This document shows positions 358-47,637 of a stretch of DNA of 64,000 nt, piece by piece (position 1 is the first letter of the stretch; every line of letters begins with the position of its first letter). This stretch comes from Agrobacterium sp. AGB01 (GTDB lineage Bacteria; Pseudomonadota; Alphaproteobacteria; Rhizobiales; Rhizobiaceae), in contig NZ_JACVAB010000006.1 of assembly GCF_014851585.1 (NCBI RefSeq), positions 310,001 to 374,000 on the forward strand, read 5' to 3'. The notes beneath the pieces were generated by a model. That model was not told the origin of the DNA and ran no database searches. It saw nothing but the letters and a program-made list of their open reading frames with translations. The translations under genes were made by a program, and so were the position numbers.

Positions 358-972
358 TTATTGAGATGTAAGACGGCTGATTTCCAGAACAACGGAATCT
401 GCCTCAACAACACTGGAATGTTTTATCAGATCAAACTGCCAACGACCACGGGCTTTCGTGATCTCACTTTGGTAATCCCGGCCTTTATTAAAAAAAGCCT
501 TCACTTTCTCGGAATCTCTAGCCCAAGGATGCATATATTCGAGCAAAAGATCGAGATCAGCGAGCGCGCGGGCTGAAATCACATCGCAGTGCGGAATGAT
601 TTCAGGCGCTTTTTCAATACGAATGGGGTGAATACTGCCCCGAGCACCGGTTTCAGCCAGAGCAACACGCAAGAAAGCTGCTTTCTTATTGTTGCTTTCA
701 ACCAGATGAACCCAACCATCATTGAGTTCAGCCAGGAAAATGGCTGTGACAACACCAGGAAGTCCACCGCCACTGCCCAAATCGACCCACGTCTGCGGCT
801 GTGGGCTTAGCTGAAAGATCTGCGCACTATCCGCAATGTGCCGGCTCCAGATTTCTGATATGGTGGAGGGCGCTGCGAGATTTGTTGTTTTATTCCACTT
901 TTTAAACAGGTCAACATAATGTGTGAGTCGTTCATGTGTTTCACGTGAAACACTTTGGCCGTTTATCTGCAT
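358..972 (-). CDS. rsmG: 16S rRNA (guanine527-N7)-methyltransferase RsmG (GidB)
   Basis: RsmG methylates N7 of G527 in 16S rRNA using SAM; its loss is known to give low-level streptomycin resistance. At 204 residues it has the family length. The SAM-binding loop [11 protein letters not shown] is at residues 63-73, preceded by the family motif RHIADS at 44-49. It lies between mnmG (11 bp gap) and parA. Codons 7-12 (SVSRET) are encoded by a perfect 16-bp parS palindrome at 937-952, so the DNA here serves both as coding sequence and as a ParB site. The start is the only ATG that keeps the conserved N-terminal region. Confidence 0.96.
937..952. promoter_or_regulatory. parS site 1 (perfect palindrome) inside rsmG
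   Basis: TGTTTCACGTGAAACA is a perfect 16-bp palindrome identical to the consensus ParB-binding parS of alphaproteobacteria. It lies inside the rsmG coding region, about 600 bp from parA and about 6.6 kb from the probable origin. It is the only one of the six sites here without a GANTC sequence. Confidence 0.93.
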
Positions 973-983
973 GTAAAGACTCG

Positions 984-2861
984 TTATGAGTGCGATTGTA
1001 CCTGCGGTTGAATCGCTACGTTGTGCTTTTTTACCAACGCCAGAATAAGCGATACAGCGGCCGGTGTCATGCCGTCTACACGGGATGCCTGTGCGATATT
1101 CAGAGGTTTTGCAGCAATAAGTTTCTGTTTCAACTCATTCGACAGGCCGGAAAGCAAGCTGTAATCAAAATCGTCTGGTATCTTACGATCCTCATCACGA
1201 CGAATTTCGATAATATCAGCGCTCTGACGCTGCATATAAACAGCATAGCCAGCTTCAATCTCCAGCACCTCGCCAACCTTATTGTTGATCGCGCTCAAGT
1301 CGTTCCAATGTCCACGGAGCTGATCGAGCGAAATATCAGGATAGGACAGCAACTCATAGGCAGAACGGCGCTGCCCATCCTGATTCAACTTCAAGCCAAT
1401 TTTGGCCCCTTCGTTGGGGCTGATTTGAATTGACTGCAGCAGAGCGCGACCCTTCTCGATCGCATCCGTGAATTCAGAAAAGCGCCCAGTACGAGCAGAA
1501 CCTATAATTCCCGCTTTCAAACCAATAGGGGTCAGACGCAAATCGGCATTATCAACCCGTAGAGAAAGCCGATATTCCGCACGTGATGTAAACATGCGAT
1601 ACGGTTCACTGACGCCCTTCGACGTCAGATCGTCAATCATCACACCGATATAGGATTCTGTTCGGCTGAAATGCAGCGCCTCAGAACCGGAGGCATAAAG
1701 CGATGCATTAAGACCGGCAACCAGGCCTTGAGCACCCGCTTCTTCGTAACCAGTCGTGCCATTGATTTGTCCCGCAAGAAACAGACCTTGCACCTTCTTG
1801 ACCTGCAGAGAAGGGTAGAGCTCTCGAGGGTCGACGTAGTCATATTCAATTGCATAACCTGGTTGGAGAATTTCGACTTTTTCCAATCCGGGAATACTAT
1901 GAATGAAAGCTTCCTGAACGGATGCAGGTAACGACGTCGAAATACCGTTCGGGTAAATCGTGTCGTCATCCAGTCCCTCGGGCTCCAGGAATATCTGGTG
2001 ACCGTCACGGTCTCCAAAGCGAACGATCTTATCTTCGATGGAAGGGCAATAACGCGGCCCAACACCTTCAATCTGTCCTGAATACATCGCGGAGAGATGG
2101 ATATTGTCGCGGATGATCTTATGACCGTATTCGGTGGTACGGGTCACACCACAATCAATTTGCGGATTAACAATAGCATCCGTCATGAAGGAGAAGGGGA
2201 ACGGATCTTCGTCTGCGGACTGGCGCTCGACCGAATCCCAATCAATCGTCTTGCCATTCAAACGCGCTGGTGTGCCAGTTTTCAAACGACCTAGTTTCAG
2301 TCCCAACCGCGCCAGTGTATCGGACAATCCAACAGACGGCTTTTCACCAACACGACCCGCGGGAATCTTTTCGGACCCGATATGAATGAGGCCACGGAGA
2401 AAGGTGCCGCTGGTCAGAACAACAGATGCGCAAGGAAATATACGCCCATCCGCCATTATTACCTTTTTGACGATTTTATCTTCAATTTCAATATCATAGG
2501 CATCACCTTCGATAACTGTGAGATTATCGATTGAGGCAATTTCCTTAGCCATAGCGAGGCGGTAAAGCTTGCGGTCAGCCTGAGTACGAGGACCACGGAC
2601 AGCAGGGCCTTTTTTACGATTGAGCATACGGAACTGAATTCCGCCCGCATCTGCAACACGGCCCATCAAACCATCGAGAGCGTCAATCTCGCGAACAAGG
2701 TGACCTTTTCCCAAACCACCAATCGCAGGATTACAGGACATGACGCCGATGGTATCAGCTTTGTGAGTAATCAAAGCTGTCTTGGCGCCATGACGTGCCG
2801 CTGCCGCCGCCGCTTCGCAGCCCGCGTGTCCACCACCGATAACAATTACATCGTAGCGCAT
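984..2861 (-). CDS. mnmG: tRNA uridine-5-carboxymethylaminomethyl modification enzyme MnmG (GidA)
   Basis: MnmG is an FAD enzyme that, with MnmE, installs the (carboxymethyl)aminomethyl group on U34 of tRNAs that read two-codon boxes. The Rossmann FAD motif [10 protein letters not shown] is at residues 9-18. The SCNPAIGG and KTGTPARL motifs and the C-terminal region involved in MnmE and tRNA contact are present. The 625-residue length is normal. It lies between its functional partner mnmE (67 bp upstream) and rsmG (11 bp downstream), consistent with co-transcription. Confidence 0.97.
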
Positions 2862-2915
2862 CTCAATGCCCTTGTATTACTCTGCGGAAACGGAGAGGGC
2901 ACTCACTAGCCCGAA

Positions 2916-2931
2916 TGTTTCACGTGAATCA
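2916..2931. promoter_or_regulatory. parS site 2 at the mnmE stop codon
   Basis: TGTTTCACGTGAATCA differs from consensus parS at one position. Read on the minus strand it is TGATTCACGTGAAACA, identical to the site at 9274. It overlaps the mnmE stop codon at 2929-2931. The variant base creates a GANTC site (GAATC). Confidence 0.88.
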
Positions 2932-4260
2932 TTTGCCAATGCAGAATTCGGAGAAAATCACACTCAATAAATCTTCGACATCTACTCGTCCGGTTATTCT
3001 ACCAAGAGAACTTGCAGCGAGACGAAGATATTCCGATCTTATGGCCAAATCCTGACCTTCGGATTGCAGCGCATCACTAACATAATTTCGGGTCTCTTCA
3101 AGACGTTTCTGATGTCTCTGGCGGACCGGCGCCAACATCGATGCAGAACCAAGGCGGTTCTCAATATAATCTCTAATAAATGATTTGAGTTTCTCTAGAC
3201 CTTGGCCGCTCTCGACGGACAGTTCCAGCGCAAATGCAGATGGCAAAGGCGAGGGACCACGCTGGTCACTTTTGCTGCGAACCAATACATGGTTACGACT
3301 ACTGATGGTAATGCTAGTTTGTTCCGGAATCGAATCGGTATCAACAAGATGAAGAACAAGGTCTGCCATTTCGGCCTTGGCAACCGCTCTTTTCACGCCT
3401 TCCTGCTCTACGGCATCTGACGTCTCTCTGATGCCTGCGGTATCGGAGACGGTGACCAGATAGCCGCCAAGGTTGAGATCAACGTTCAAGACATCTCTGG
3501 TCGTGCCAGCGATATCGGTAACAATCGCCACGTCACGACCGCTGAGAGCGTTCAGCAGGCTGGACTTGCCGACATTAGGTAAGCCAACCAGTGCAATCTT
3601 AAGGCCGTCTCGGATGATTTCTGCTGACGATGCGGCGGCCAGATGATTGTTAACCTCATCCAGCAACGCCTTCATCTGTATCCACACGTGATTGGCAACA
3701 GAATCTGGCACATCTTCTTCATCGGCAAAATCGAGTTCGGCCTCGATGAACGCACGCGCTCGCGTCAACCTGTCGGCCCAGCCATCATAAAGAGCAGAGA
3801 GTTTGCCAGAACTTTGCTCAACGGCAAGACGACGCTGCATCTCCGTTTCCGCATGTAATAGATCTGCGAGACCTTCAACCTCGACAAGATCCATCTTCCC
3901 ATTCTCGAAAGCACGTTGGGAAAATTCTCCAGCTTCCGCCGGCCTTCCCCCTTCATGCCCCGCCAACTCCTCAAATACAGCGTTCACCACAGCCCGGCTG
4001 CCGTGGACTTGCAATTCCACGCAATCTTCACCGGTAAAGGAGTGTGGAGCTGGAAATGGAAGCACCAGCGCCTGATCAATCGCTAGACCATTACGGTTAC
4101 GAATCGTTCTTAAACTTGCTTTTCTGGAATCCGGCAAAGGACCTTTGATCAGACTTTGCAACATAGGAAATGCCTGTGGTCCGCTGAGTCTGATGACCGC
4201 GACACCAGCAGGCAGCGCGCCACTGGACAATGCGTAAATCGTGTCTGAGGTTTTTGTCAT
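2929..4260 (-). CDS. mnmE: tRNA modification GTPase MnmE (TrmE)
   Basis: MnmE is a GTPase that binds methylene-tetrahydrofolate and works with MnmG on tRNA U34. With the start at 4260 it has 443 residues. An N-terminal TrmE fold is followed by a helical region with an inserted G domain: P-loop GLPNVGKSS at 226-234, G2 region DIAGTTRD near 250 and DTAG near 274. It ends in CIGK, the invariant C-terminal motif with the catalytic Cys. The frame runs on to 4332, but that start would fall inside the loop of the rho terminator and add residues not typical of the family; the product MTKTSDTIYALSSG is the expected N-terminus. Another ATG at 4299 cannot be excluded. Confidence 0.95.
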   Translation of the reverse strand: MTKTSDTIYALSSGALPAGVAVIRLSGPQAFPMLQSLIKGPLPDSRKASLRTIRNRNGLAIDQALVLPFPAPHSFTGEDCVELQVHGSRAVVNAVFEELAGHEGGRPAEAGEFSQRAFENGKMDLVEVEGLADLLHAETEMQRRLAVEQSSGKLSALYDGWADRLTRARAFIEAELDFADEEDVPDSVANHVWIQMKALLDEVNNHLAAASSAEIIRDGLKIALVGLPNVGKSSLLNALSGRDVAIVTDIAGTTRDVLNVDLNLGGYLVTVSDTAGIRETSDAVEQEGVKRAVAKAEMADLVLHLVDTDSIPEQTSITISSRNHVLVRSKSDQRGPSPLPSAFALELSVESGQGLEKLKSFIRDYIENRLGSASMLAPVRQRHQKRLEETRNYVSDALQSEGQDLAIRSEYLRLAASSLGRITGRVDVEDLLSVIFSEFCIGK

Positions 4261-4311
4261 CGCTGTCACTTGGTCCCACTTAGGCCCGAACATACAATTA
4301 TTATCTTCAAT

Positions 4312-4351
4312 AAAAAATGGCCGTGCTGGCATTACACCACACGGCCATTTT
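4312..4351 (-). terminator. Rho-independent terminator of rho
   Basis: The arms 4314-4325 and 4340-4351 form a perfect 12-bp stem (CACGGCCATTTT paired with AAAATGGCCGTG) with a 14-nt loop. On the minus strand it is followed by a run of T. It lies 21 bp beyond the rho stop codon and before the mnmE start, so it should separate the rho and mnmE transcripts. Confidence 0.8.
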
Positions 4352-4372
4352 ATTATTGAATCCGGCTAACCG

Positions 4373-5638
4373 TTAGGTGTTCATTGAGTCGAAGAAATCA
4401 CCGTTGTTCTTGGTTTGCTTCAACTTGTCGATAAGGAATTCGATGGCGTCCATCGTTCCCATCGGAGCAAGGATACGGCGTAGAACAAATATCTTCTGAA
4501 GATCTTGGCGTGGCACGAGCAGGTCTTCCTTACGTGTACCGGACTTGAGAATATCCAGCGCTGGGAAGATGCGCTTGTCAGCAACCTTGCGGTCAAGCAC
4601 GATTTCCGAGTTACCGGTACCCTTGAATTCTTCAAAGATAACTTCATCCATACGGCTACCTGTATCGATCAGCGCCGTTGCGATGATTGTCAACGAGCCG
4701 CCTTCTTCGATGTTACGGGCAGCACCGAAGAAGCGCTTAGGACGCTGTAGGGCGTTCGCATCGACACCACCGGTCAGAACCTTACCAGAAGAAGGAACAA
4801 CGGTGTTGTAAGCACGGCCGAGGCGGGTGATCGAATCGAGCAGGATAACAACGTCACGACCATGCTCGACAAGGCGCTTCGCCTTCTCAATGACCATTTC
4901 AGCGACCTGAACGTGGCGAACTGCTGGTTCGTCGAAGGTAGAGGAAACAACTTCACCCTTCACAGAACGCTGCATGTCCGTCACTTCTTCAGGACGCTCA
5001 TCGATCAGCAGAACGATGAGATAGCATTCCGGATGGTTAGCAGTGATCGAATGTGCGATGTTCTGCAGCAGAACCGTTTTACCGGTACGTGGCGGTGCAA
5101 CGATCAGACCACGCTGGCCTTTGCCGAGTGGGGCAACCAGATCGATAACGCGAGACGACAAATCCTTCGAGGTTGGAACATCAAGTTCCATTTTGAAACG
5201 CTCATTCGGATAGAGCGGTGTCAGGTTATCGAAGTGAACCTTGTGGCGAATCTTTTCAGGGTCGTCGAAGTTGATCGAGTTGACCTTCAGAAGCGCAAAA
5301 TACCGTTCGCCTTCCTTCGGCCCACGGATTGGTCCTTCAACCGTATCGCCAGTCTTCAGCGAGAAGCGGCGGATCTGCGAGGGAGATATGTAGATATCAT
5401 CAGGACCAGGCAGATAGTTGGCATTGGCGGAACGCAGAAAGCCGAAGCCGTCCTGCAGAACTTCCACCACACCTTCACCGATAATCTCGATATCCTGGCT
5501 GGCGAGAACCTTGAGGATAGCAAACATTAGCTCCTGCTTGCGCATGGTGCTGGCGTTTTCGACCTCGAGCGATTCCGCAAATGTCAGCAAATCGGTTGGA
5601 GATTTGCTTTTTAGTTCTTGAAGCTTCATTTCAGCCAT
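4373..5638 (-). CDS. rho: transcription termination factor Rho
   Basis: Rho is the hexameric RNA-dependent ATPase/helicase that ends untranslated transcripts. The 421 residues match the family. An N-terminal Rho-N helix bundle (about 5-45) is followed by the RNA-binding cold-shock fold with GFGFLR near 64-69, then the RecA-like domain with Walker A APPRTGKT (181-188), ERPEEVTDM, and Walker [14 protein letters not shown]. The start at 5638 gives MAEMKLQEL; the ATG three codons later is an alternative. It is read away from hemJ's end after a 195-bp spacer and has its own strong terminator. Confidence 0.97.
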
Positions 5639-5833
5639 GAAGAGAAGACCGTTTCAGATATTAAGAAATGATAGGGGAGGGGCGTGCTGAAAAATTCGGT
5701 ACTGGGTGAATGACCCGCATACGACTGAACAAGACACATGCCGCGAAGATGAGTAGCGGGAAAATAGCGACTGAATTGGAAGCCTGCAAGAGAAAAGCAA
5801 CAATTCCGCGAAATTTATAAAAATATGAACCGA

Positions 5834-6376
5834 TCAAAACGGTTTCACAACCACAAGTATGACGATGATGATCATCAAGACGGTTGGAACCTCGTTTAAC
5901 AACCGCCAGTGTCGGGCGCTGTGTTTGTTTTCATCACGCGCAAAAACCCGAACTGCACGGCTGAAATACACATGCGCACCGGTTAGAAACACCACTGCGA
6001 GAATTTTGGTATGGAGCCATCCACCCGAAAAGCCATAAACGCTCCAGGCGAGGTAGAGCCCCAACACCCATGAAATCATCATGGCAGGGTTCATGATCAG
6101 TTTGAGAAGACGCCGTTCCATCACCTTGAAGGTTTCGGATTGCACGGAACCAACCGGTGCATCTGTGTGGTAAATGAACAGCCGCGGCATATAAAGCAGC
6201 CCCGCCATCCACGAAATGACAGCGATGATATGCAGCGCCTTTACCCAGAGATAGGCCTGATCAGGACCTATCCAGTAGAGCAGGCCACCGAAGCAGGCAA
6301 AAGCGCAGAGCGCCATAGCAACGCGCAGCCGGGTTTTCCGTCCAGCAGATTCCGAAGTCTGCAGCTCGCCACTCAT
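5834..6376 (-). CDS. hemJ: protoporphyrinogen IX oxidase HemJ
   Basis: HemJ is the membrane-bound enzyme that oxidises protoporphyrinogen IX to protoporphyrin IX in bacteria that lack HemG/HemY. The 180-residue protein has four or five hydrophobic segments. The conserved first histidine region ([20 protein letters not shown]) and the later [16 protein letters not shown] segment carry the family's invariant His, Arg and Lys residues. Its start overlaps the hemE stop by 4 bp (ATGA), so two steps of haem synthesis are translationally coupled. The 195 bp between this gene and rho contain no gene that I can support. Confidence 0.92.
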
Positions 6377-7401
6377 CGTTTAAAACCACGCACGCGGTTC
6401 ACCAGCTTGGTCACATTCTCAGGATCGGCTTGTGGCGTGATACCATGGCCAAGATTGAAAATCAGTGGACCGTTGCCCAGTGCCTGCAGAATGGCATCGA
6501 TGCCCTCATCCAGTGCCTTGCCACCGGCGACCATACGCATAGGGTCCAGATTGCCCTGTACGGGGCCGTCCTTCTGCAACTCCTGTGCAAAGGAAAGCGG
6601 AACAGACCAATCGAGCCCAATGGCATCTGCGCCGGTCTTTTGACGGTAATCCTTCAACAGTATTCCCGCACCTTTGGCAAAAGCGATGATCTTGGCACCG
6701 GGGCGACGGCTACGAACGGATGCAATGATGCGCTGAACCGGCTTCACCGCAAAATTTTCAAACTCACTCTCACCAAGCACACCAGCCCAGGAGTCGAAAA
6801 TTTGAACGGCATCTGCGCCGGCGTCGATCTGCGCCACAAGATAATCAGCGGATATGTCAGCGAGAGTAGCCAGCAGTTCTTCCATCGCTTGAGGGTGATT
6901 ATAACCGAACAGACGTGCGGGTGCCTGATCGGGTGTTCCGTGGCCGGCAATCATATAGGTCGCAACTGTCCAGGGAGCTCCACAGAAGCCAATCAGCGTG
7001 GTTTCCTGCGGCAGTTCCGCGCGCAACCGCTTTACGGTTTCAAACACGGGACAGAGATGCGGAAGAACATCGACCTTGGAAAAGGATGCAATGTCTGAAA
7101 CCTCAATCGGGTCCATCGCCGGACCCTTGCCCTCGCTGAAGGTAACATTGCGCTTCAAAGCATCTGGAATAACCAGAATGTCTGAGAACAGGATTGCAGC
7201 ATCCAGACCAAAGCGGCGAATAGGCTGCAAGGTAACTTCGGTGGCCAATTGCGGATTATAACAGAGGTCCAGGAAACTTCCGGCTTGCTGACGCGTTTGT
7301 CTATATTCGGGAAGGTAACGACCAGCCTGTCTCATAAGCCAGATTGGTGGAGGAGTGAGTGTTTCTCCATCAAGCACTTTCAGCAGACGGCGTACAGCCA
7401 T
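6373..7401 (-). CDS. hemE: uroporphyrinogen decarboxylase HemE
   Basis: HemE decarboxylates the four acetate side chains of uroporphyrinogen III to give coproporphyrinogen III. The diagnostic N-terminal motif [16 protein letters not shown] is present, with the Arg residues that bind substrate. [13 protein letters not shown] carries the catalytic Asp, and GFCGAPWT is also present. The start at 7401 (342 residues) follows the ribosome binding site GGAAAGGTG; a TTG at 7419 would overlap that site and is unlikely. hemE borders the probable origin, as in Caulobacter and Rickettsia. It overlaps hemJ downstream. Confidence 0.96.
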
Positions 7402-7805
7402 GAATTCACACCTTTCCAAAATATAAAAATAGAGATTCTTAGAATCTTCTTATTCTTAGAGTCAGTGAGTATCAGGAATTAAAAACACCTCAAGCCTCAC
7501 CCACAAAAACATGACAGACAGCAATTGAGCGGACACAGTTTCAACCAAACAGCTTGGTACTGTGAATAATTCAAAAAATATTGAAAAATCATTGACTTGA
7601 ACGCTGAAAAATTGGTTTGAAATTGTGGATAACTGGTGCATGGATTTGGACTGCGGCATTTTTTCCCACCTATCCACAAGCTCCTCTCAACGAAGTCCCC
7701 TGAAGTGCTTTTTGTGGAAAACTCGACACTTTTCCCGTTCCCGGATCGGTCGCTCGCCACTAGGATGAAGTCATCCCCACTTATCAACAGGCAGGCAAAA
7801 ACAAC
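7402..7805. other. oriC: probable chromosomal replication origin (oriC) between hemE and the kinase-regulator gene
   Basis: This 404-bp gap has no supported gene and lies between hemE and the DUF299/PPSR gene (the Rickettsia RP001-type neighbour), the known origin location in Caulobacter and related alphaproteobacteria. DnaA-box matches: TGTGAATAA at 7561-7569 and TGTGGATAA at 7624-7632 (both fit TTATNCACA exactly), and one-mismatch copies CTATCCACA 7670-7678, TGTGGAAAA 7713-7721 and TTATCAACA 7781-7789. The AT-rich stretch 7561-7622 between the two perfect boxes is a candidate unwinding element. Three GANTC sites cluster at 7434-7463. I found no TTAA-N7-TTAA CtrA site. parA and six parS sites surround it. 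Confidence 0.82.
7433..7463. repeat. GANTC-containing inverted and direct repeat at the hemE side of oriC
   Basis: AGATTCT-T-AGAATCT (7433-7447) is a 7-bp-arm inverted repeat with a one-base centre. ATTCTTAGA occurs at 7435-7443 and again at 7452-7460. The stretch contains three GANTC sequences (7434, 7442, 7459), the CcrM methylation target, in 30 bp. Confidence 0.7.
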
Positions 7806-8627
7806 GTGGAGAACCAGAAAAGTTTCTTTCATCTGCATCTGATTTCTGACTCAACAGGAGAGACTCTCAGATCTGCAGGCCGTGCTGCCTCCGCGCAGTT
7901 CCATGCCGCAACACCAATTGTGCATGTCTATCCAATGGTCAGAAACCAGAAGCAGCTTGGCCAGATCCTCGACGCAATCGATAACGAACCCGGCATTCTC
8001 CTTTACACAATGGTGGACGAGAACCTTTGCGAGTTCCTGTCGCAGCGTTGCCAGGCCATGGATATTCCTTGCGTGAATGTGCTCGAACCGATCCTGACGA
8101 CCTTTCAGACCTATCTCGGAAAAAAATCAAAACAGCAGGTCGGTGCACAATATGCTCTGAATGCCGACTATTTTGGCCGCATTGAAGCATTGACCTTTGC
8201 CATGGATCATGACGATGGCCAGATGTCGGAGAACTATGATGAGGCTGATGTGGTTATCGTCGGCATCAGCCGTACCTCCAAAACCCCCACCAGCATCTAT
8301 CTGGCCAATAGAGGTATAAAGGCTGCCAACATACCTGTTGTTCCCGGTGTTCCCTTGCCGGAAAGTCTTTATGCAGCCAGCAAACCTTTGATCGTCGGAT
8401 TGATCGCCACATCAGATCGCATTTCCCAAATTCGGGAAAATCGCGAACTCGGTTCAACAAGCGGTTTTGACCCTGGCGGATACACTGACAGGGCGACAAT
8501 TATGGAAGAGCTGAAATATGCGCGTTCGCTGTGTGCCCATAACAATTGGCCGGTGATAGATGTGACGCGCAGATCGATCGAAGAAACGGCCGCCGCGATC
8601 ATTGCCATGCGTCCACAGCTACGCTAA
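7806..8627 (+). CDS. PPDK/PEP-synthase regulatory kinase-pyrophosphorylase (DUF299 family)
   Basis: Proteins of this family phosphorylate and dephosphorylate a Thr of pyruvate phosphate dikinase or PEP synthase, using ADP or inorganic phosphate. The N-terminal [11 protein letters not shown] (about 11-21) and the P-loop-like [18 protein letters not shown] (about 153-170) are the family signatures. The 273-residue length is normal. Translation starts at a GTG (7806) on the downstream edge of oriC, and its promoter must lie within or beside the origin. It is the first of a rightward run: this gene, maf, aroE, coaE, dnaQ. Which of the two target enzymes it controls cannot be told from this window. 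Confidence 0.93.
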
Positions 8628-8676
8628 GCCGCGACACGCTGCTTAACCGCCGCTGATATAAGTGTTGGAGAGAGAT

Positions 8677-9276
8677 ATGAAACCGGCCTTGATTCTGGCT
8701 TCTTCCAGTTCATCCCGCCAGGCCTTGATGAGAAATGCCGGCCTGGAGTTTACTGCGCAAGCCGCTGATATCGACGAGCGTCTGATTGAAGAGCCCTTGC
8801 AGGCGGCCGGTAGCACGCCGGATGAAACAGCGCTTGAACTTGCCAAGGCAAAAGCACTGGCCGTCTCCGACCTTCATCCTCAGGCCATTATTATTGGCTG
8901 TGACCAGACAATGTCGCTGGGTTCAAGAATCTACCACAAACCGAAAGATATGGCTGAGGCGCATCAGCATCTGATGTCGCTCTCGGGGCAGACACATCGT
9001 TTGAACTCGGCCGCGGTCATGGTGCGTCACGGTGACGTGCTCTGGCAGACGGTAACCCATGCCGATATGACTGTTCGGGAATTGAGTGACGCTTTCGTCG
9101 ACGGACACCTGCGGAAGGTCGGCAAAAAAGCCTTGACCAGCGTCGGAGCCTATCAACTTGAAGGAGAGGGAATCCAGCTATTCACTTCAATTGAAGGCGA
9201 TTATTTTACCGTCCTTGGCTTGCCGCTGCTGCCGCTTTTGGAAGCGTTAAGAAAATTTGGGGTGATAAATGCGTGA
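8677..9276 (+). CDS. maf: Maf-family nucleotide pyrophosphatase
   Basis: Maf proteins hydrolyse non-canonical or excess nucleoside triphosphates (dTTP, UTP or modified bases) to monophosphates. The N-terminal [12 protein letters not shown] loop, the DERLIEE region, the IIIGCDQT motif and the C-terminal [14 protein letters not shown] are those of the family. The ATG at 8677 follows GGAGAGAG and gives 199 residues; a GTG at 8662 would add five residues. It lies 49 bp after the kinase-regulator gene, and its last 8 bp overlap the aroE start, so the two are probably coupled. Confidence 0.92.
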
Positions 9277-10132
9277 TTCACGTGAAACATTAACCATGAA
9301 GGCTTTTGTTGCCGGCTACCCAATCAAGCACTCTCGCTCGCCATTGATCCATGGATACTGGCTGAAACAGTTCGGCATCGAAGGATCTTATAATGCCGTA
9401 GAAGTTCATCCAGATGCGTTCAAGGATTTTCTTGCGCAGATCAAGTGTGGCGAGGAGGGCGGCTTTGTCGGCGGCAATGTCACAATCCCGCATAAGGAAA
9501 GTGCATTTCAACATGCTGACAAGCCGGACGAGTTGGCACAAGAGCTGGGCGCCGCCAATACCATCTGGATGGAGGACGGAAAACTGTGTGCCACCAATAC
9601 TGACGGTCACGGTTTTATCGCCAATCTCGATGAACGTCATCCCGGCTGGGACAAGGCAGGCAAGGCTGTTGTTCTGGGAGCAGGTGGTGCAAGCCGCGCG
9701 ATCATTCAGGCATTGCGCAATCGCGGCCTGAGCGAAATCCATGTTCTCAACAGAACGGTAGAACGCGCTCAGGAACTTTCAGATCGCTTTGGTGAGAAAG
9801 TGCATGCGCACTCCATAAGTGCTTTACAGGAAACCATGTCGGGTGCAGGGCTTTTTGTGAACACCACCTCGCTTGGAATGGATGGAAGTGAAATACCAGA
9901 TTTCGACTTCTCGCCATTGGCAACCGACGCAGTGGTAACTGACATCGTGTATGTGCCGCTCAAAACACCGATCCTGAAAATTGCCGAGCGACAGGGTTTT
10001 GCGATTGTTGACGGTCTTGGCATGTTACTGCATCAGGCAGCACCTGGTTTTGAGAAATGGTTTGGGGTTCGCCCCAAGGTCGATGAAACCTTGCGGTCCC
10101 TGATCATCGCCGACATGGAGAAATATGCATGA
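9269..10132 (+). CDS. aroE: shikimate dehydrogenase AroE
   Basis: AroE reduces 3-dehydroshikimate to shikimate with NADPH in the aromatic amino acid pathway. The substrate-binding region [14 protein letters not shown] (about 18-31), the catalytic Lys in NVTIPHKE (K76), and the NADPH loop LGAGGASRA are clear. The 287-residue start at 9269 has GGGGTG upstream and overlaps maf; ATG 9296 is an alternative. The extra N-terminal residues DSRET are encoded by a parS site (9274-9289), so the DNA may be constrained by ParB binding rather than by protein function. coaE begins within its stop codon. Confidence 0.95.
9274..9289. promoter_or_regulatory. parS site 3 at the maf/aroE junction
   Basis: TGATTCACGTGAAACA is one base from the palindromic parS and identical, on the opposite strand, to the site at 2916. 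The variant base makes a GANTC site (GATTC). It is the parS nearest to oriC, about 1.6 kb away. Confidence 0.9.
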
Positions 10133-11431: not shown

Positions 11432-11497
11432 ATCAGTTGTCGGTGGTCTCCGAGACGAGACCTCAGATAAAAGAGAAAGATTTTTCTTTAAACAAAC

Positions 11498-11534
11498 AAA
11501 AAGCCCGCTGCGGGGTATTCGCTGCGGGCTTTTT
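11498..11534. terminator. bidirectional terminator between dnaQ and secB
   Basis: Inverted repeat AAAAAGCCCGC (11498-11508) and GCGGGCTTTTT (11524-11534) gives an 11-bp stem with A/T runs on both sides. It can stop both dnaQ (plus) and secB (minus) transcripts. Confidence 0.9.
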
Positions 11535-11558
11535 AGTTTCATACAAGCGAACCAACTA

Positions 11559-12038: not shown

Positions 12039-12102
12039 GCTGTTTCCTCGCGGATTGAATGTGTTTGGCCATCTATCATTTCAAAACAGGGCTTACAAGC
12101 CT

Positions 12103-15529: not shown

Positions 15530-18106
<2,577 letters not shown>

Positions 18107-18137
18107 TCAGGCACCGTCCCAGACGGTGAATGGTTGA

Positions 18138-18153
18138 GGATTCACGTGAAACT
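18138..18153. promoter_or_regulatory. parS site 4 between the gyrB stop and its terminator
   Basis: The core GATTCACGTGAAAC (18139-18152) matches the asymmetric parS form of the other sites and carries GANTC (GATTC). It lies immediately before the gyrB terminator hairpin, in the 3' untranslated part of the transcript. Confidence 0.85.
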
Positions 18154-20884: not shown

Positions 20885-20900
20885 GGATTCACGTGAAACA
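20885..20900. promoter_or_regulatory. parS site 5 upstream of trpF
   Basis: GGATTCACGTGAAACA holds the core GATTCACGTGAAAC (20886-20899) with a GANTC (GATTC). It is in the 177-bp spacer between the YgjP-like gene and trpF, about 13 kb from oriC. A GC-rich hairpin (CCGGCG-CAG-CGCCGG, 20812-20826) is also in this spacer. Confidence 0.88.
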
Positions 20901-35790: not shown

Positions 35791-35870
35791 GTTGCCTGTT
35801 CGGTTTGAGACGTCATTTGTTCAAGCATGAGATGATCCGCAGACCACTCCACCGTTTTCGGTAGGATGCT

Positions 35871-39997: not shown

Positions 39998-40090
39998 GAC
40001 ATCCCATTTCCGCGTGACGTCCGATCGGAAGCCTCACGAATCAAGAGCTTAAACAATACTGCCTTAGGGAATCTGCGGGAAGGGACTGGG

Positions 40091-40127
40091 CCAAAAAAGA
40101 AATGGCCCGCTTTGTCAAGCAGGCCAT
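40091..40127 (-). terminator. Rho-independent terminator of ahcY
   Basis: On the minus strand ATGGCCTGCTT, loop GACA, AAGCGGGCCAT form an 11-bp stem (one G-T pair), followed by TTTCTTTTTTGG. It lies 30 bp beyond the ahcY stop. Confidence 0.87.
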
Positions 40128-40157
40128 CACTATATATTGTGGATAATTTTGATATGG

Positions 40158-41561
40158 TTAATATCTGTAGTGCTCAGCCTTGAATGGGCCCACTTTTGAT
40201 ACACCGATATAGTCGGCCTGAACGTCAGAAAGTTCTGTAAGCTTCACGCCAAGCTTCTCGAGGTGAAGGCGGGCAACCTTTTCATCGAGGTGCTTCGGCA
40301 GCACATAGACGTCGTTTTTGTATTCGCCTGGCTTGGTGTACAGCTCGATCTGGCCCAACACCTGGTTGGTGAAGGACGCCGACATCACGAAGGATGGGTG
40401 ACCTGTGGCATTACCCAGGTTCAGCAGACGACCTTCCGACAGAAGGATCATGCGGTTGCCCTTGGCAAACTCGATCATGTCGACCTGTGGCTTGATGTTG
40501 GTCCACTTCAGGTTCTTCAGTGCAGCAACCTGGATTTCGTTGTCGAAGTGGCCGATGTTGCCAACAATTGCCATATCCTTCATCTCGCGCATATGCTCGA
40601 TGCGGATAACGTCCTTGTTGCCAGTTGTGGTGATGAAGATGTCAGCCGAAGAAACAACGTCTTCTAGACGGACAACTTCAAAACCGTCCATAGCGGCCTG
40701 CAAAGCGCAGATAGGGTCGATTTCGGTAACCTTGACGCGGGCGCCAGCGCCCTGAAGCGAAGCAGCCGAACCCTTGCCAACGTCGCCGTAACCGCAAACG
40801 ACAGCAACCTTACCAGCCATCATTACGTCGGTAGCGCGGCGAATACCATCAACCAGCGATTCCTTGCAGCCGTACTTATTGTCGAACTTCGACTTGGTAA
40901 CGCTGTCGTTGACGTTGATCGCCGGGAAGGGGAGAAGACCCTTTTTAGCCAGGTCGTACAGGCGGTGAACACCTGTGGTGGTCTCTTCGGTCACGCCCTT
41001 GATTGCGTCGCGCTGCTTGGTGAACCAGCCTGGCGATGCCTTGAGGCGCTTCTTGATCTGTGCAACCAGAATTTCTTCTTCTTCAGAGCCCGGGTTGGAC
41101 AGAACGTCTTCTCCAGCTTCTGCGCGTGCTCCGAGCAGGATGTACATGGTGGCATCGCCGCCATCGTCCAGGATCATGTTGGATGGCTCGCCATCGGTCC
41201 ACTGGAAGATTTTGTCGGTGTATTCCCAGTATTCTGTCAGGCTTTCGCCCTTGATCGCAAAAACCGGAATGCCAGCAGCGGCAATAGCTGCGGCCGCATG
41301 GTCTTGCGTGGAGAAAATGTTGCAGGATGCCCAACGAACATCAGCGCCGAGTTCCTTCAACGTCTCGATCAGAACAGCAGTCTGGATCGTCATGTGCAGC
41401 GAACCGGAAATGCGTGCGCCCTTGAGCGGCTTGGAAGCACCGAATTCGCTGCGGCAGGCCATCAGACCCGGCATTTCGGTTTCGGCGATATCGAGTTCCT
41501 TGCGGCCAAATGCGGCAAGATTGATATCAGCTACGATATAATCTTTGGTTTCAGTGCTCAT
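40158..41561 (-). CDS. ahcY: S-adenosylhomocysteinase AhcY
   Basis: AhcY reversibly splits S-adenosylhomocysteine to adenosine and homocysteine, keeping the methyl cycle running. The NAD-binding motif [13 protein letters not shown] and the signature [14 protein letters not shown] are clear, and the C-terminus KAEHYRY is the conserved end. The ATG at 41561 has GGAG upstream and gives 467 residues, the long bacterial form; the open frame to 41651 crosses a structured leader and is not used. It is 127 bp after ptsH in the same direction. The leader (41582-41626) may regulate it. Confidence 0.97.
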
Positions 41562-41581
41562 GCGTTTCTCCAGATCAGTGA

Positions 41582-41626
41582 GGTGCGATCCCGCACCCCT
41601 TGGTGGCAACTGTTGGCCAAGGGGTG
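41582..41626 (-). promoter_or_regulatory. structured leader with two overlapping hairpins upstream of ahcY
   Basis: Hairpin 1 (farther from the start): CACCCCTTGG and CCAAGGGGTG pair perfectly (10 bp; 41594-41603 with 41617-41626), with an inner CAAC/GTTG stem in the loop. Hairpin 2: GGTGCG-GGAT-CGCACC (41582-41597). They share the four bases at 41594-41597, so full formation of one opens the other. The ahcY ribosome binding site follows about 10 nt later. It does not match the known SAH riboswitch consensus that I can recall; a terminator is unlikely because there is no T-run. Confidence 0.55.
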
Positions 41627-41688
41627 TATCAGGCTTAAACCAATCTGGCAATAATGATATAAAGAAGTCTTTATGTCTTTATATGACT

Positions 41689-41964
41689 TTACGCTTCTTC
41701 ACCGAAACGGTTGGCGACCAGCGCGTCGAGAGCGGCAAGCGCCTCTTCAGCCTGATTGCCACTTGCTTCCACAAGCACCGTGCAGCCAGGGCTGGCTGCC
41801 AGCATCATAAGACCCATTATCGAGGTTCCGCCAACCGTCATTCCGTCTTTTGAAACGGTGATCTCGGCGTCAAATCCGTCAACCATCTGCACGAATTTTG
41901 CCGAGGCACGGGCATGCAGGCCGCGTTTATTGATAATCAGCAATTCGCGCGATAATGGCGACAT
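41689..41964 (-). CDS. ptsH: phosphocarrier protein HPr (PTS system)
   Basis: HPr is phosphorylated by enzyme I on His and passes the phosphate on. The 91-residue protein has the phospho-His in NKRGLHARAS (H17) and a Ser in GGTSIMGLMM (S48), the site that HprK targets. In alphaproteobacteria it works in the nitrogen-related PTS, not mainly in sugar uptake. It lies in the series chvI-chvG-hprK-EIIA-ptsH-ahcY; the EIIA gene ends 16 bp upstream. Confidence 0.94.
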   Translation of the reverse strand: MSPLSRELLIINKRGLHARASAKFVQMVDGFDAEITVSKDGMTVGGTSIMGLMMLAASPGCTVLVEASGNQAEEALAALDALVANRFGEEA

Positions 41965-41980
41965 GGGTGTGAAATGTCCG

Positions 41981-42382
41981 TTATTTTCCGCTCAAGACGC
42001 GGCTGGCAACATTGATGTATTTGCGGCCCGCATCGGATGCTTCCTGCAGCGCCTTGTCCATATTGTTCTCACCGCGCACTCCGGCCAGCTTGATAAGCAT
42101 AGGCAGGTTTACACCGGCAATCACCTCGATTGGACCATTATGCATCACGGAAATCGCGAGATTGGACGGTGTACCGCCGAACATGTCGGTCAAGATGATA
42201 ACGCCGTTTCCATCATCTGCACGCGCAACGGAATCAAGAATATCCTGCCGGCGCTGATCCATGTCATCTTCCGGGCCGATTGAAACCGCTTCGATCAACT
42301 TCTGCGGACCTACGACATGCTCTACTGCATGACGAAATTCTTCAGCCAGCTTGCCATGAGTGACAAGCACAAGTCCGATCAT
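41981..42382 (-). CDS. PTS enzyme IIA of the mannose family (EIIA-Man type)
   Basis: The 133-residue protein has the phosphorylated His in VLVTHGKLAEEF (H9), the conserved TDMFGGTPSN motif and GVNLPML. No EIIB or EIIC genes accompany it here, which fits the regulatory PTS of Rhizobiales, where this protein is a phosphate end-point and not part of a permease. It is between hprK and ptsH; the 133-bp spacer from hprK contains no supported gene. Confidence 0.92.
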   Translation of the reverse strand: MIGLVLVTHGKLAEEFRHAVEHVVGPQKLIEAVSIGPEDDMDQRRQDILDSVARADDGNGVIILTDMFGGTPSNLAISVMHNGPIEVIAGVNLPMLIKLAGVRGENNMDKALQEASDAGRKYINVASRVLSGK

Positions 42383-42515
42383 GAAATGCTCCCTTGCACA
42401 CGCATTCTAATTGTCGACTACCGCAATGCCGCAATTCTGTCCACCGGTGGGTAGCCATCTTGGTGATGAAAACAGGAATCGCAAGTCCAAAAATGAGGCA
42501 ATCAACGCATTTGAC

Positions 42516-42977
42516 TTATGCATAAAGGGAATTGCTTACCAATGTCCTGAACCTGGCAAGCGGATTATGGCATTGCAGCGGAATTCGTGTGACGGGCAAT
42601 CGCCCGCCACAGGGCAACGCATACATCTCGTTTTCCGGCGGTAGTCGCTCATGCGTGTCGTTTGGCGCGAGAACCATTACCGCATAATGCAATGTCGCCT
42701 TTTCAATGCTGTCCAACCGAACGATACCGCTGCCGCGCAACTCCAGCAGCCCAGCAATAGAAGCAGGGCGTTCGGCTATGATTGTGCCGTCCTGCTGCTG
42801 CGAGACAAAAATCTGGTCATCGGCAATCAGTGCCGAGGATTGCCCGGCATAACGGGCTTCCGTCAGAAAAGCGAAGGCGAGAGAAGATTTTCCGCTGCCG
42901 GATGGTCCAACGAATAAAATGCCGATTTCATCGACGGTGATGGCGGTCGCATGAAGATTGATGCGATCAGCGCTCAT
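42516..42977 (-). CDS. hprK: HPr kinase/phosphorylase, short alphaproteobacterial form
   Basis: HprK phosphorylates HPr on Ser. The 153-residue protein is only the C-terminal catalytic domain of the Bacillus enzyme, with Walker A GPSGSGKSS (24-32) and the LIADDQIF and LELRGSGIV motifs; the N-terminal half of the long form is absent, as is usual in Rhizobiales. It overlaps the 3' end of chvG by 11 bp, linking the two-component system and the PTS in translation. Confidence 0.93.
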   Translation of the reverse strand: MSADRINLHATAITVDEIGILFVGPSGSGKSSLAFAFLTEARYAGQSSALIADDQIFVSQQQDGTIIAERPASIAGLLELRGSGIVRLDSIEKATLHYAVMVLAPNDTHERLPPENEMYALPCGGRLPVTRIPLQCHNPLARFRTLVSNSLYA

Positions 42978-44760
42978 GATGCTGTTCAGCGCTAGGCAGG
43001 CTCAGGGTAAAGCGCGCACCGGTTATCAAGCCGTGCTGGTCCAGCATGTTTTCTGCCTTCAGAGTGCCACCATGGGCTTCGGCAATCTGACGGCTAATTG
43101 AGAGACCAAGACCAGAATTCTGACCAAAGTCTTCCGTCGACGGTCGATCAGTATAAAAACGCTCGAAAATGCGGTCGATATTTTCTGCCTGAATGCCAGG
43201 ACCATTGTCTTCAACACGGATCACACAACGATCCCGGTGCCGGTAAAGATGTACAAAAATCCTACCATTGTCCGTTGGAACGAAGGAACGGGCATTTTCA
43301 ATAAGATTGGTAACAATCTGGCCGAGCCGCAGGTCATGGCCGTTGACGACAAAGTTGGTTTTGACGCCAGCCTTGTGATCAGCCTTGTATTCGATTTTGA
43401 CGGCTTTTTTCTTGGCACTGATTTGCTGAGAAATCTCGACAAGGCTTTTGACAAGCACTTCCATATCAACGGGATTGGCATCGGCGCGGGCAAGTTCGGC
43501 ATCAAGACGCGAGGCATCGGAAATGTCGCTGATCAAGCGGTCAAGCCTGCGAACGTCATGGAAAATAACGTCGGTCAGGCGCTGTTTAGATTGTTCCGTC
43601 TTGGCCAGTGGCAGGGTTTCAACCGCACTGCGCAACGAGGTCAGCGGATTTTTCAATTCGTGGCTGACGTCGGCAGCAAAGCTTTCGATGGCATCAATCC
43701 GGTCGTAAAGCGCCGTCGTCATTTCACGCAAGGCTATGGAAAGGTTACCAATTTCGTCCTGACGGGCAGAGAAATCAGGGATTTCCTCTCGGGTGCGGGC
43801 ACCGCGACGCACACGAATAGCTGCAGCCGACAAACGACGCAAAGGTGTGGCGATGGTTGAAGACAACAGCAATGACAGCACAATGTTGACCAGTGTCGCG
43901 ATACCGAACACGCGCATGATCGCCAGACGCTCGGCGTGCACGATCTTGTCGATGTCACCCGCCTGTGTCGATAACAGCAGAACACCAAGAACTGCGCGGA
44001 AGCGCTGTACCGGCACAGCCACCGACACGATCAGTTCACCCTTGTCCGTCACCCGCACTACCGCACCACGAACACCGGTCAATGCATTCATGACCTCTGG
44101 GTAGATCGAGCCATCACCACCAGGCGCTTCTTTGTATTGAGGAAGACTGCCGGATTGCAGCATGCGGTTAAACAGGCTGGCGAACCAGTCACCCCAGCTT
44201 GTCGTTTCATTGGAAACTGGCGGCAAATCAAAACGCAGGACCTGGCCGCGCGAATAAAGGTGGCGCGAATCAAGCAGCAGGTTTGCATCCGCATCAAACA
44301 GACGGGCGCGTGTGCGGGTAGGGGAAATCAATCGACGCAGAACCGGGGCAACCCGTTCCGGATTGATCGGGAAGCTCAAATCCTCATCATTGGGAACAGG
44401 CGTAATGCTTTGGCCCGCCTGCAGTTCAAGCAGCTTTTCCGGATTGATAGTGATCGAGTTGGTATCAACGGACGCGGATGCAGAAATCGCACCGGCAATG
44501 ATTTCTCCCTGCGTCAGCAGACTTTCGACGCGGGCGTCGATCAGTCCTTCACGGAACTGATTGAGGTAGAGAATGCCGCCCACCAGAACGACGGTCGCCG
44601 CCACGTTGAAAAACAGGATACGGCGGGTAAGGCTGGAGAATACTGCATTGCCGAAGATCCGTCGAATGAGCGTCAACGGGTGAATACGGTGGGGGCGATC
44701 CTGCAAACGGTCGTCCGCATCCATATTCTGCGCGTTGTTCTCAAAGGTTTGCTTCAGCAA
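42967..44760 (-). CDS. chvG: sensor histidine kinase ChvG/BvrS
   Basis: This kinase senses acidity or envelope stress and phosphorylates ChvI; in Brucella (BvrS) and Sinorhizobium (ExoS) it is needed for host interaction. The 597-residue protein has membrane segments at about 47-67 and 282-302 enclosing a periplasmic domain, then HAMP, an H-box ADVSHELKNPL (H367) and N, G1 and G2 boxes. A TTG at 44760 with AAGGA 7 nt upstream is the best start; ATG 44724 is an alternative. It overlaps hprK. A 7-bp hairpin (44840-44857) lies between chvI and this gene and could reduce its expression. Confidence 0.93.
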   Translation of the reverse strand: MLKQTFENNAQNMDADDRLQDRPHRIHPLTLIRRIFGNAVFSSLTRRILFFNVAATVVLVGGILYLNQFREGLIDARVESLLTQGEIIAGAISASASVDTNSITINPEKLLELQAGQSITPVPNDEDLSFPINPERVAPVLRRLISPTRTRARLFDADANLLLDSRHLYSRGQVLRFDLPPVSNETTSWGDWFASLFNRMLQSGSLPQYKEAPGGDGSIYPEVMNALTGVRGAVVRVTDKGELIVSVAVPVQRFRAVLGVLLLSTQAGDIDKIVHAERLAIMRVFGIATLVNIVLSLLLSSTIATPLRRLSAAAIRVRRGARTREEIPDFSARQDEIGNLSIALREMTTALYDRIDAIESFAADVSHELKNPLTSLRSAVETLPLAKTEQSKQRLTDVIFHDVRRLDRLISDISDASRLDAELARADANPVDMEVLVKSLVEISQQISAKKKAVKIEYKADHKAGVKTNFVVNGHDLRLGQIVTNLIENARSFVPTDNGRIFVHLYRHRDRCVIRVEDNGPGIQAENIDRIFERFYTDRPSTEDFGQNSGLGLSISRQIAEAHGGTLKAENMLDQHGLITGARFTLSLPSAEQHHER

Positions 44761-44839
44761 TTCCTGTTCCTTTTCACCGCCCAGGTGAAGAAGGCCGAAC
44801 CCGCAGGGGTTTCAGCCTTTTCTTCATCAGCCCCTGAAA

Positions 44840-44857
44840 CCAGTCCCTTTGGACTGG
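44840..44857 (-). terminator. small hairpin between chvI and chvG
   Basis: CCAGTCC (44840-44846), 4-nt loop, GGACTGG (44851-44857). The T-run beyond it is short, so it is more likely a partial attenuator or mRNA-processing element than a full terminator. Confidence 0.4.
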
Positions 44858-44905
44858 CCATAACAGGGCGGTAACCGTCTCAAACCGGACGTCCTTGTAG
44901 CCCGT

Positions 44906-45631
44906 TTAGGCCGCTTCGCGGAAGCGATAGCCTACACCATAGAGCGTTTCGATCATATCGAAGTCAGTGTCAACGACCTTGAACTTTTTGCGGAGACGCT
45001 TGATGTGGCTGTCGATGGTACGGTCGTCGACGTAAACCTGCTCATCATAGGCAGCGTCCATCAGCGCATCACGGCTTTTGACCACGCCGGGACGTTGTGC
45101 CAGCGAATGCAGAATGAGAAACTCGGTTACTGTCAGTGTTACCGGCTCACCCTTCCATGTGCAGGTGTGACGTTCCTGATCCATGGCAAGCTGGCCTCGT
45201 TCCAGAGTACGGGCCTGCTGGTCAGCGGCGGATTTGGTGCCGGGTACACCACTTGCGGCGGCCTCACGGCTGCTGGCGCGGCGCAGAATAGCCTTTACGC
45301 GCTCCACAAGAAGGCGCTGAGAAAACGGCTTGGTGATAAAGTCGTCCGCCCCCATTTTAAGGCCGAACAATTCGTCGATCTCTTCATCTTTCGAGGTGAG
45401 AAAGATAACTGGAATATCAGACTTCTGGCGAAGGCGACGCAGCAGTTCCATGCCGTCCATGCGGGGCATCTTGATGTCGAAGATCGCCAACTGCGGCGGA
45501 CGGGCCAGAAGTCCATCCAGTGCCGATGCGCCATCGGTATAGGTCTCGACCTTGTAACCCTCGGCTTCGAGGGCGATGGAAACGGATGTCAGAATATTCC
45601 TGTCGTCGTCCACAAGGGCAATTGTCTGCAT
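44906..45631 (-). CDS. chvI: response regulator ChvI/BvrR (OmpR/PhoB family)
   Basis: The receiver domain has the acidic pair in ALVDDDRN, the phospho-acceptor in [10 protein letters not shown] (D52) and the Lys in FITKPFS. The C-terminal winged helix includes [18 protein letters not shown] and [15 protein letters not shown] 45631, with GGAGAT 8 nt upstream, gives 241 residues; earlier ATGs at 45646 and further upstream extend it. It precedes its kinase and is divergent from pckA, a known target of the ChvI system in several rhizobia. Confidence 0.94.
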
Positions 45632-45962
45632 AGTGTTTATCTCCATCGTCATCTTCTCTCTCGACATCATACCCAGCCAGGTTGGAGCGCCGTGAGCGTG
45701 TTCATGAGTATAAAGGTGGAACAAATTGTGGCAAAGAAAAAGGATGCGACATCGTGCAATCTTCCAAACAGTCGTTTGCACCCGTCCTCAACACGAAAAT
45801 CTGCGATTGTTTAAACGATTTAAAATGAAATAAAATATTCTAAATCGATTAATATATTGAATTTATTGATGTATTTTAAAAGAGGCTCTTGCGTTTCCAA
45901 AAGACGGGTCATACGCTTGCGAAAATTTCAATGGTTATGCCTGCAACAAAAGGAAATTGCTC
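45632..45962. promoter_or_regulatory. divergent regulatory region between chvI and pckA
   Basis: 331 bp with no supported gene. The part from about 45808 to 45885 is strongly AT-rich. It contains GTTTAAAC (45809-45816) and a second TTTAAA (45819-45824). AT-richness together with the divergent start sites suggests overlapping promoters for both genes. The ATG-rich extension of chvI covers part of it but shows no conserved protein sequence. Confidence 0.5.
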
Positions 45963-47573
45963 ATGGAGGAGCTTGGAATTCGTAATCCTGCTAATGGAGT
46001 ATCCGAGCTTGGTCTGGCTGGTGCTTCCAACGTCAAGTACAATCTCATCGAGAGCGAACTTTACGAAGAAGCAATCCGCAATGGTGAAGCCGATGTCACC
46101 GCTGATGGCGCATTGCGTGCAGTGACCGGCCAACACACAGGTCGTTCGCCAAAGGACAAGTTTGTTGTCCGCGACGCGGCGACGGAAAACACCATCTGGT
46201 GGGATAACAACAAGCCTCTGTCTCCTGAAAAGTTTGAAATCCTGCACAAGGACATGCTGGCCCACGCTGCCGGCAAGACACTTTATGTACAGGATCTGCT
46301 GGGCGGTGCCGACGAAGACAACGTTCTTCCGGTTCGTGTTATAACCGAACTGGCTTGGCATGCGCTTTTCATTCGCAACCTTCTGATTCGCCCATTGCGC
46401 GAAAAGTTGGGCTCCTTCAAGCAGAAGCTGACCATCATCAACCTGCCAAGCTTCAAGGCTGATCCGGAGCGTCACGGCGTGCGCACCGAAACGGTGATTG
46501 CTTGCGATCTGACCAATGGTCTGGTGCTGATCGGCGGCACGTCCTATGCCGGTGAAAACAAGAAGTCGGTGTTCACTGTTCTCAACTACCTGCTGCCTGC
46601 CAAGGGCGTCATGCCAATGCACTGCTCGGCCAATGTTGGCCCGGCAGGTGATTCGGCTGTCTTCTTCGGACTGTCCGGAACCGGCAAGACCACGCTGTCT
46701 GCAGACCCGTCGCGTACGCTGATCGGTGATGACGAGCATGGCTGGGGTGAAGATGGCATCTTCAACTTCGAAGGCGGTTGCTACGCCAAGGCAATCAAGC
46801 TCTCTGCAGAAGCAGAACCGGAAATCTACGCGGCGACCCGTCGTTTCGGCACGGTTTTGGAAAATGTAGTACTGGACGAAAACCGCGTTCCGGATTTCAA
46901 CGACAATTCGCTGACCGAGAACACCCGTAGCGCTTACCCGCTGCACTTCATTCCAAATGCGTCGGAAACCGGTATTGCTGGCCACCCGAAAACCATCATC
47001 ATGCTGACAGCAGATGCCTTTGGCGTTCTGCCGCCAATTGCCCGTCTGACACCTGAGCAGGCCATGTACCACTTCCTGTCCGGCTACACCGCCAAGGTCG
47101 CCGGTACGGAAAAGGGCGTGACTGAGCCGGAAGCAACATTCTCGACCTGCTTCGGCGCACCATTCATGCCACGTCATCCTGCGGAATACGGTAACCTGCT
47201 GCGTGATCTGATCAGCCGCCACCAGGTGGATTGCTGGCTCGTCAACACGGGCTGGACCGGTGGTGCTTACGGCATTGGCAAGCGCATGCCGATCAAGGCA
47301 ACCCGCGCACTGCTGACAGCGGCTTTGACGGGTGAGTTGAAAAACGCCCAGTTCCGCACGGACGCAAACTTCGGTTTCGCTGTGCCAACTTCACTGGAAG
47401 GTGTCGATAGCGCCATTCTCGACCCGCGCTCGACTTGGGCTGATGGCGTTGCTTACGACGCACAGGCCAAGAAGCTGGTTTCGATGTTCGTGACCAACTT
47501 CACAAAGTTCGAGGATCACGTTGACAGCAAGGTGCGCGATGCCGCTCCTGGCCTCAAGATCGCCGCAGAATAG
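45963..47573 (+). CDS. pckA: phosphoenolpyruvate carboxykinase (ATP) PckA
   Basis: PckA makes PEP from oxaloacetate, the entry to gluconeogenesis from organic acids. The P-loop kinase-1a motif [11 protein letters not shown], the metal site [17 protein letters not shown] and [10 protein letters not shown] are present. ATG 45963 with AGGA 8 nt upstream gives 536 residues; a TTG at 45957 adds two. It is divergent from chvI, whose product regulates pckA in relatives. Downstream are a parS site and a terminator. Confidence 0.97.
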
Positions 47574-47621
47574 CAAGTGGAGCGGATGTTGCGTCTGGAA
47601 TGACGCAGCCCACTGTAGTTT

Positions 47622-47637
47622 GGATTCACGTGAAACC
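47622..47637. promoter_or_regulatory. parS site 6 overlapping the pckA terminator
   Basis: GATTCACGTGAAAC (47623-47636) with a GANTC in its left arm. Its right arm supplies the GAAAC that begins the terminator stem. It is the most distant site, about 40 kb from oriC. Confidence 0.85.

Follow-up and report, generated by a model that had tools for sequence, protein, structure and literature searches.

One-arm GATTC variants of parS near the probable chromosomal origin of Agrobacterium sp. AGB01

Why do most copies of a palindromic chromosome segregation site carry the same base change in one arm, and does it matter that this change creates a methylation target? The question is raised by a 64,000-nucleotide stretch of the Agrobacterium sp. 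AGB01 genome (contig NZ_JACVAB010000006.1, positions 310,001 to 374,000; hereafter the window). A sequence-only reading had located six parS sites in the window, the binding sites of ParB in the ParABS system, five of which have GATTC rather than GTTTC in one arm. GATTC is a GANTC sequence, the target of the cell-cycle methylase CcrM, and the methylation state of the arm was proposed to alter ParB binding and so to link segregation to replication. We find that the one-arm change is probably best explained by what ParB tolerates, and not by a methylation switch.

parS sites with one perfect arm

A pattern scan of the window allowing up to three mismatches returned the same six sites, as compared to a mean of 0.28 matches in 100 shuffles, and GATTC is present in one arm of five of them, with GATTCACGTGAAAC occurring exactly at 2917 (minus strand), 9275, 18139, 20886, and 47623 (Table 1). 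The 5.6-Mb genome (24 contigs) has eight parS sites with zero or one mismatch, all on the contig of the window. The two that lie outside the window, GGTTCACGTGAAAC and GTCTCACGTGAAAC, are ~34 and ~49 kb to its left, have one mismatch each, and carry GGTTC and GTCTC, neither of which is GANTC. GATTC is found in five of the eight sites and in five of the seven asymmetric ones. All eight are 14–16-bp palindromes that depart from the 14-base core by no more than one change, and they cluster within ~97 kb near parAB and the probable origin; parA spans the left end of the window, with parB immediately beyond. The helix-turn-helix of this ParB has the motifs GKSRSHVAN and GHAR, which were matched by eye to R173, N178, G201, and R204, residues that recognize parS (PMC7383237). 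ParB1 of Agrobacterium tumefaciens has been reported at parS1 sites (PMC9239152). The sites of the window are likely to be ordinary chromosomal parS in a lineage-wide, one-armed form, to which binding by ParB is predicted.

The one-arm form is widespread in the family. Variants changed at the second base of one arm occur in 53 of 61 family genomes, amounting genome-wide to 133 GATTC, 23 GACTC, 5 GCTTC, and 3 GGTTC. Comparison of GATTC with other single-base variants, the check suggested by the sequence-only reading, thus shows GATTC to be far over-represented (133, and 23 GACTC, versus 8 with C or G). Origin tiles from 58 family genomes, including the window, contain 98 palindromes, 133 GATTC, 23 GACTC, and 12 other single changes, that is, 156 GAYTC arms versus 12 (Y, T or C). 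These class counts exclude 10 two-mismatch tile sites other than GACTC, and their agreement with the genome-wide totals (133 and 23) is a coincidence, as the two sets differ. The tiles were picked for GVNTC sites, and palindrome-only genomes are consequently under-represented among them, while the genome-wide counts are unaffected. GANTC in both arms was observed at a single tile site, as compared to 24 expected if the arms were independent, and a parS site therefore keeps one perfect arm. The change is nearly always to A at a single position; unconstrained drift is rejected on these grounds. Within the tiles, 57 of the 60 parS-type sites that fall in rsmG are palindromes. Sites no more than 20 bp from the end of mnmE have GAYTC in 44 genomes, including that of the window (35 T and 9 C), and are palindromic in none, and maf/aroE-type sites have GATTC in 12 of 12, again including that of the window. 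The 13 genomes from other families of the order yielded 9 GATTC, 1 GCTTC, 1 GGTTC, and 1 GCCTC.

Published binding data fit a rule of one perfect arm. In a synthetic parS of Burkholderia chromosome 1, the change T3A in one arm leaves binding by ParB in vitro like that of wild type (PMC5450999), and by our mapping T3A is the second base of GTTTC and hence the same one-arm change as seen here. The symmetric T3A change was not bound, and of the symmetric changes only those at the outermost position and a single position-5 transition did not abolish binding. The probes in these experiments were presumably unmethylated. The same data suggest that a site with one perfect arm is weaker. ParB of Pseudomonas aeruginosa has been found at the single arms GTTCCAC and GTTTCAC (PMC10419367).

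These observations are consistent with a mechanism in which one arm (GTTTCAC) is kept perfect and the second base of the other is changed from T to A, which would be the best-tolerated one-arm change. ParB would still load on such sites, probably more weakly than on the palindrome near parAB. The A may be retained because genes make use of it, as in the TGA stop codons of mnmE and maf and in codons of aroE and hisH, or because its cost to ParB is low, and the GANTC in the arm would then be a by-product. Because tolerance of a one-arm A and placement at gene ends would explain most of the pattern, the proposed methylation mechanism is not needed.

Methylation and the distribution of CcrM

CcrM is encoded in the AGB01 genome, and the five GATTC arms are therefore probably methylated. 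CcrM was also found in all 33 other family genomes checked. These include all eight family genomes that have no GVNTC variant (G002, G034, G044, G022, G056, G005, G006, and G053). Comparison across lineages did not show the GANTC form to depend on CcrM. Alphaproteobacteria outside the order (113 genomes) have 4 GATTC, 6 GCTTC, 2 GGTTC, and 3 other variants, with 4 control matches; those that bear CcrM contribute 2 GATTC, 5 GCTTC, and 2 GGTTC, few sites among which A is not favored. Among the genomes of this group with GATTC, GCTTC, or GGTTC, CcrM was not found in G132 (70% complete), G143, and G171. In the phylum outside the class (119 genomes), there are 7 GATTC, of which four are from a single genus, along with 3 GCTTC, 10 others, and no GGTTC, and full-length CcrM was found in none of the 16 genomes checked, with one partial match. 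Three of these genomes without full-length CcrM (G190, G269, and G253) have a palindromic parS within ~5 kb of the GATTC site.

The 246 Actinomycete genomes have 45 GATTC, 6 GCTTC, 7 GGTTC, 2 GACTC, and 3 others, and exclusion of the centre genome, which was chosen for carrying GATTC, leaves 42, 5, 7, 2, and 3, respectively, in 245 genomes; a reversed control gave 10 matches in total across the six patterns. Of the 42 GATTC, 17 come from small genomes, many of which are likely to belong to a single clade, and without these genomes the counts are 25 A, 4 C, and 7 G. Of the 12 Actinomycete windows available for the 42 sites, 6 have a further parS-like site no more than 2.5 kb from the GATTC one. 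In one locus (L336), two GATTC parS-like sites (2501 and 2528) are separated by 27 bp, with a palindromic parS nearby, resembling pairs in the family of AGB01. Full-length CcrM was found in none of the 38 GATTC-bearing Actinomycete genomes, five of which gave a weak partial match, and in none of the 50 non-alphaproteobacterial genomes searched (6 weak partial matches); Actinomycetes may have a GANTC methylase unlike CcrM. At least 16 loci among 80 matches listed for TGATTCACGTGAAACA belong, as judged by title, to Micromonospora, Nocardia, Virgibacillus, Catenovulum, and others.

These distributions bear on the proposal that GANTC itself is selected, such that CcrM methylates the arm and hemimethylation behind the replication fork alters ParB binding, coupling segregation to replication. 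CcrM is indeed present, nearly all one-arm variants in the family are GANTC, and the other families of the order are similar (9 GATTC among the 12 variants listed). Yet the preference for A is alike in Actinomycetes without detected CcrM and is absent, albeit from few sites, in CcrM-bearing Alphaproteobacteria of other orders. GATTC being the commonest second-base change in Actinomycetes without full-length CcrM is largely the kind of result that the sequence-only reading had itself named as counting against a methylation switch, which is left unsupported as the cause of GATTC. The eight family genomes with CcrM and no GVNTC variant point the same way, as do GAATC and GAGTC, which are likewise GANTC sequences but are absent from all 165 tile sites that pair a GANTC arm with a perfect one. 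In favor of selection for GANTC, GACTC arms recur independently, with at least seven changes between T and C at the mnmE-end site, while GTCTC is rare (change counts are minima, taken from one FastTree tree of three proteins from 59 genomes, rooted at the midpoint). In the family, 23 GACTC in 16 genomes compare with 3 GTCTC, and the third-base C is not independent of the A (Fisher, 4e-10); in Actinomycetes, GACTC is at background (2 versus 42 GATTC; Fisher versus the family, 0.076). Decay of GATTC is an unlikely source of GACTC, as the 23 GACTC compare with one or two of each other two-mismatch form. Intergenic GANTC sequences within 60 bp of parS are also denser than elsewhere (6.6 versus 3.1 per kb; 62 observed versus 33 expected from base composition), although the mnmE–mnmG gap, perhaps a promoter, accounts for 35 of the 64 flanking GANTC. 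On balance, we consider selection for GANTC unlikely. An added role for CcrM is possible, in which the family has turned a change tolerated by ParB into a mark readable by CcrM: the third base would be free to be T or C, the flanking G, A, T, and C would be fixed, and hemimethylation behind the fork would impose a gradation on the weak parS sites that surround a single palindrome lacking the mark, thereby setting the time of ParB loading or labeling sister origins. We regard this elaboration as rather improbable.

The flanking GANTC sequences form a pattern of their own in the relatives of AGB01. In addition to those in the mnmE–mnmG gap, which is upstream of mnmG, 16 are located by rsmG, and the gap may hold a promoter through which the mnmG-rsmG-parAB genes respond to CcrM.

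Several observations weigh against ParB tolerance as a full account. One-arm T3C was also bound in vitro, yet GCTTC is rare in the family, and single-arm T3A failed to compete in vivo (both PMC5450999). In P. aeruginosa, two-mismatch sites were unbound in vivo (PMC5098823), and GACTC sites may therefore be inactive. Tolerance leaves unexplained why C becomes common at the third base only when A precedes it (23 GACTC versus 3 GTCTC) and has originated repeatedly, and why the preference for A is stronger in the family than in Actinomycetes (133:8 versus 42:12; Fisher, 0.002). The class of G190, probably Gammaproteobacteria, adds little, with 8 A, 3 C, and 1 G in 369 genomes, a sum equal to its 12 control matches. 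In ten short Actinomycete loci, parS neighbors were seen at three A sites but also at two C sites.

Gene ends, orientation, and the probable origin

Placement of the sites with respect to genes (Table 1) bears on whether the A is forced solely by stop codons and other codons, and their direction on whether the asymmetry is itself read, with a changed arm facing the origin directing the loading of ParB or SMC. The TGA of TGATTC is a stop codon at two window sites, gene-edge sites in the family are GAYTC in 42 cases and palindromic in 2, and in-frame sites read DSRET, IHVK, or FHVN. Intergenic sites, however, are also rich in GAYTC (59, with 52 palindromes and 5 other single changes), so that stop codons are not the whole cause, and sites displaced from the mnmE stop remain GAYTC. 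These and related counts of coding and intergenic sites are approximate, as genes were called by a simple codon-score method, and the site at 47622 was counted as coding. Residues at coding sites point in the same direction. In hemE, where the site is found in nine genomes and arose or was lost through at least four changes on the tree, Asn occurs in 9 of 9 genomes with the site and in 0 of 46 without, while 5 genomes without the site have Lys, the residue that a palindrome would specify there. In hisH, A (encoding Ile) is found in 16 of 16 genomes with parS (e.g., G008:C65:157031), and Leu, in 5 of 6 without, would suit C (GCTTC) better than A. The parS site itself therefore prefers A, and protein coding as the sole cause, ruled out by the intergenic sites and the hemE and hisH residues, is very unlikely. 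With regard to direction, the sequence-only reading had stressed that all five variants are changed in the same arm. The common orientation is real, in that the GATTC strand is directed away from the probable origin in all five, but the statement is partly an effect of naming, because any one-arm variant of a palindromic site can be written with its change on the left. All five sit at 3' ends of genes that are transcribed in the direction away from the origin, and their like orientation is due mainly to gene direction and TGA stop codons. The GANTC arm faces the origin in 124 of 147 placed sites in the family, which favors a read asymmetry but falls short of a strict polarity, rejected as a law, and once gene-edge sites and mnmE neighbors are excluded the ratio is only 56 to 22. 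Moreover, the opposite orientation is found in hemE and at several sites on the far side of parB, and where neighboring genes are co-directional, the intergenic sites between them are oriented as the genes are (38 versus 4), a direction that is inseparable here from that of replication. That the asymmetry is read is accordingly highly improbable, and tolerance by ParB of a single altered arm is the account we retain.

Table 1. parS sites and the probable replication origin in the window.
Feature	Position	Strand	Context
Palindromic parS, TGTTTCACGTGAAACA	937..952		In 5' coding end of rsmG, reads VSRET
One-arm parS, TGATTCACGTGAAACA	2916..2931	-	TGA is stop codon of mnmE (2929-4332, -)
Probable replication origin	7420..7805		Gap between hemE (-) and ppsR (+); DnaA-box-like sites; three GANTC in 30 bp
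One-arm parS, TGATTCACGTGAAACA	9274..9289	+	TGA is stop codon of maf (8662-9276); overlaps first aroE codons, MRDSRET
One-arm parS, GGATTCACGTGAAACT	18138..18153	+	Intergenic, 31 bp after gyrB stop, immediately ahead of terminator-like hairpin
One-arm parS, GGATTCACGTGAAACA	20885..20900	+	Intergenic, between genes for YgjP-like metallopeptidase and phosphoribosylanthranilate isomerase (trpF)
One-arm parS, GGATTCACGTGAAACC	47622..47637	+	48 bp after phosphoenolpyruvate carboxykinase stop; within long form of arfB frame

The origin is placed in the hemE/ppsR gap on the basis of gene order across the window (rsmG, mnmG, mnmE, and hemE, followed by the gap, ppsR, maf, and aroE) and of five DnaA-box-like matches in the gap; the window has 14 such matches, a total not above chance. 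The clustered GANTC sequences of this probable origin are located upstream of hemE, at 7434–7463. At the site at 47622, a strong hairpin (z-score −6.3) includes the intact GTGAAACC side in its stem, with the GATTC arm mostly outside. The intact arm is part of a terminator-like hairpin following the phosphoenolpyruvate carboxykinase gene (47622–47670), and this stretch may be parS and terminator in one.

Relation to known sites and significance

The sites of the window resemble chromosomal ParABS parS (consensus TGTTTCACGTGAAACA) in sequence, in the presence of several copies around the origin, and in the adjoining parAB, but differ in that most copies have one arm with GATTC or, in relatives, also GACTC. 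The single-arm T3A variant of Burkholderia cenocepacia parSc1 (PMC5450999) is the closest counterpart, although it was made for an assay, whereas the change here is natural and lineage-wide. Half-parS sites in P. aeruginosa (PMC10419367) likewise show that one arm suffices for ParB binding, but those are lone heptamers, as opposed to full-length sites with a near-perfect second arm. CcrM-methylated sites of Alphaproteobacteria share with these the GANTC sequence and an encoded CcrM; in the parS arms, however, there is no sign of dependence on CcrM. GANTC sequences have been noted at the Caulobacter parS locus, with methylation there unchanged with methylase expression (PMC5172544). The string GATTCACGTGAAAC was found in no paper of the literature searched, nor was a GANTC inside a chromosomal parS arm found described in the accessible parts of papers dealing with parS and CcrM or GANTC.

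The original observation is thus right and broader than had been known from the window. An attractive methylation story is replaced by a simple rule, by which one arm must be perfect and A is allowed at the second base of the other. The leftover pattern of GACTC provides a narrow place in which to look for a real link between CcrM and ParB. The rule shows where genuine, if weak, parS sites might be found across entire families of bacteria, and why the ends of genes suit them.

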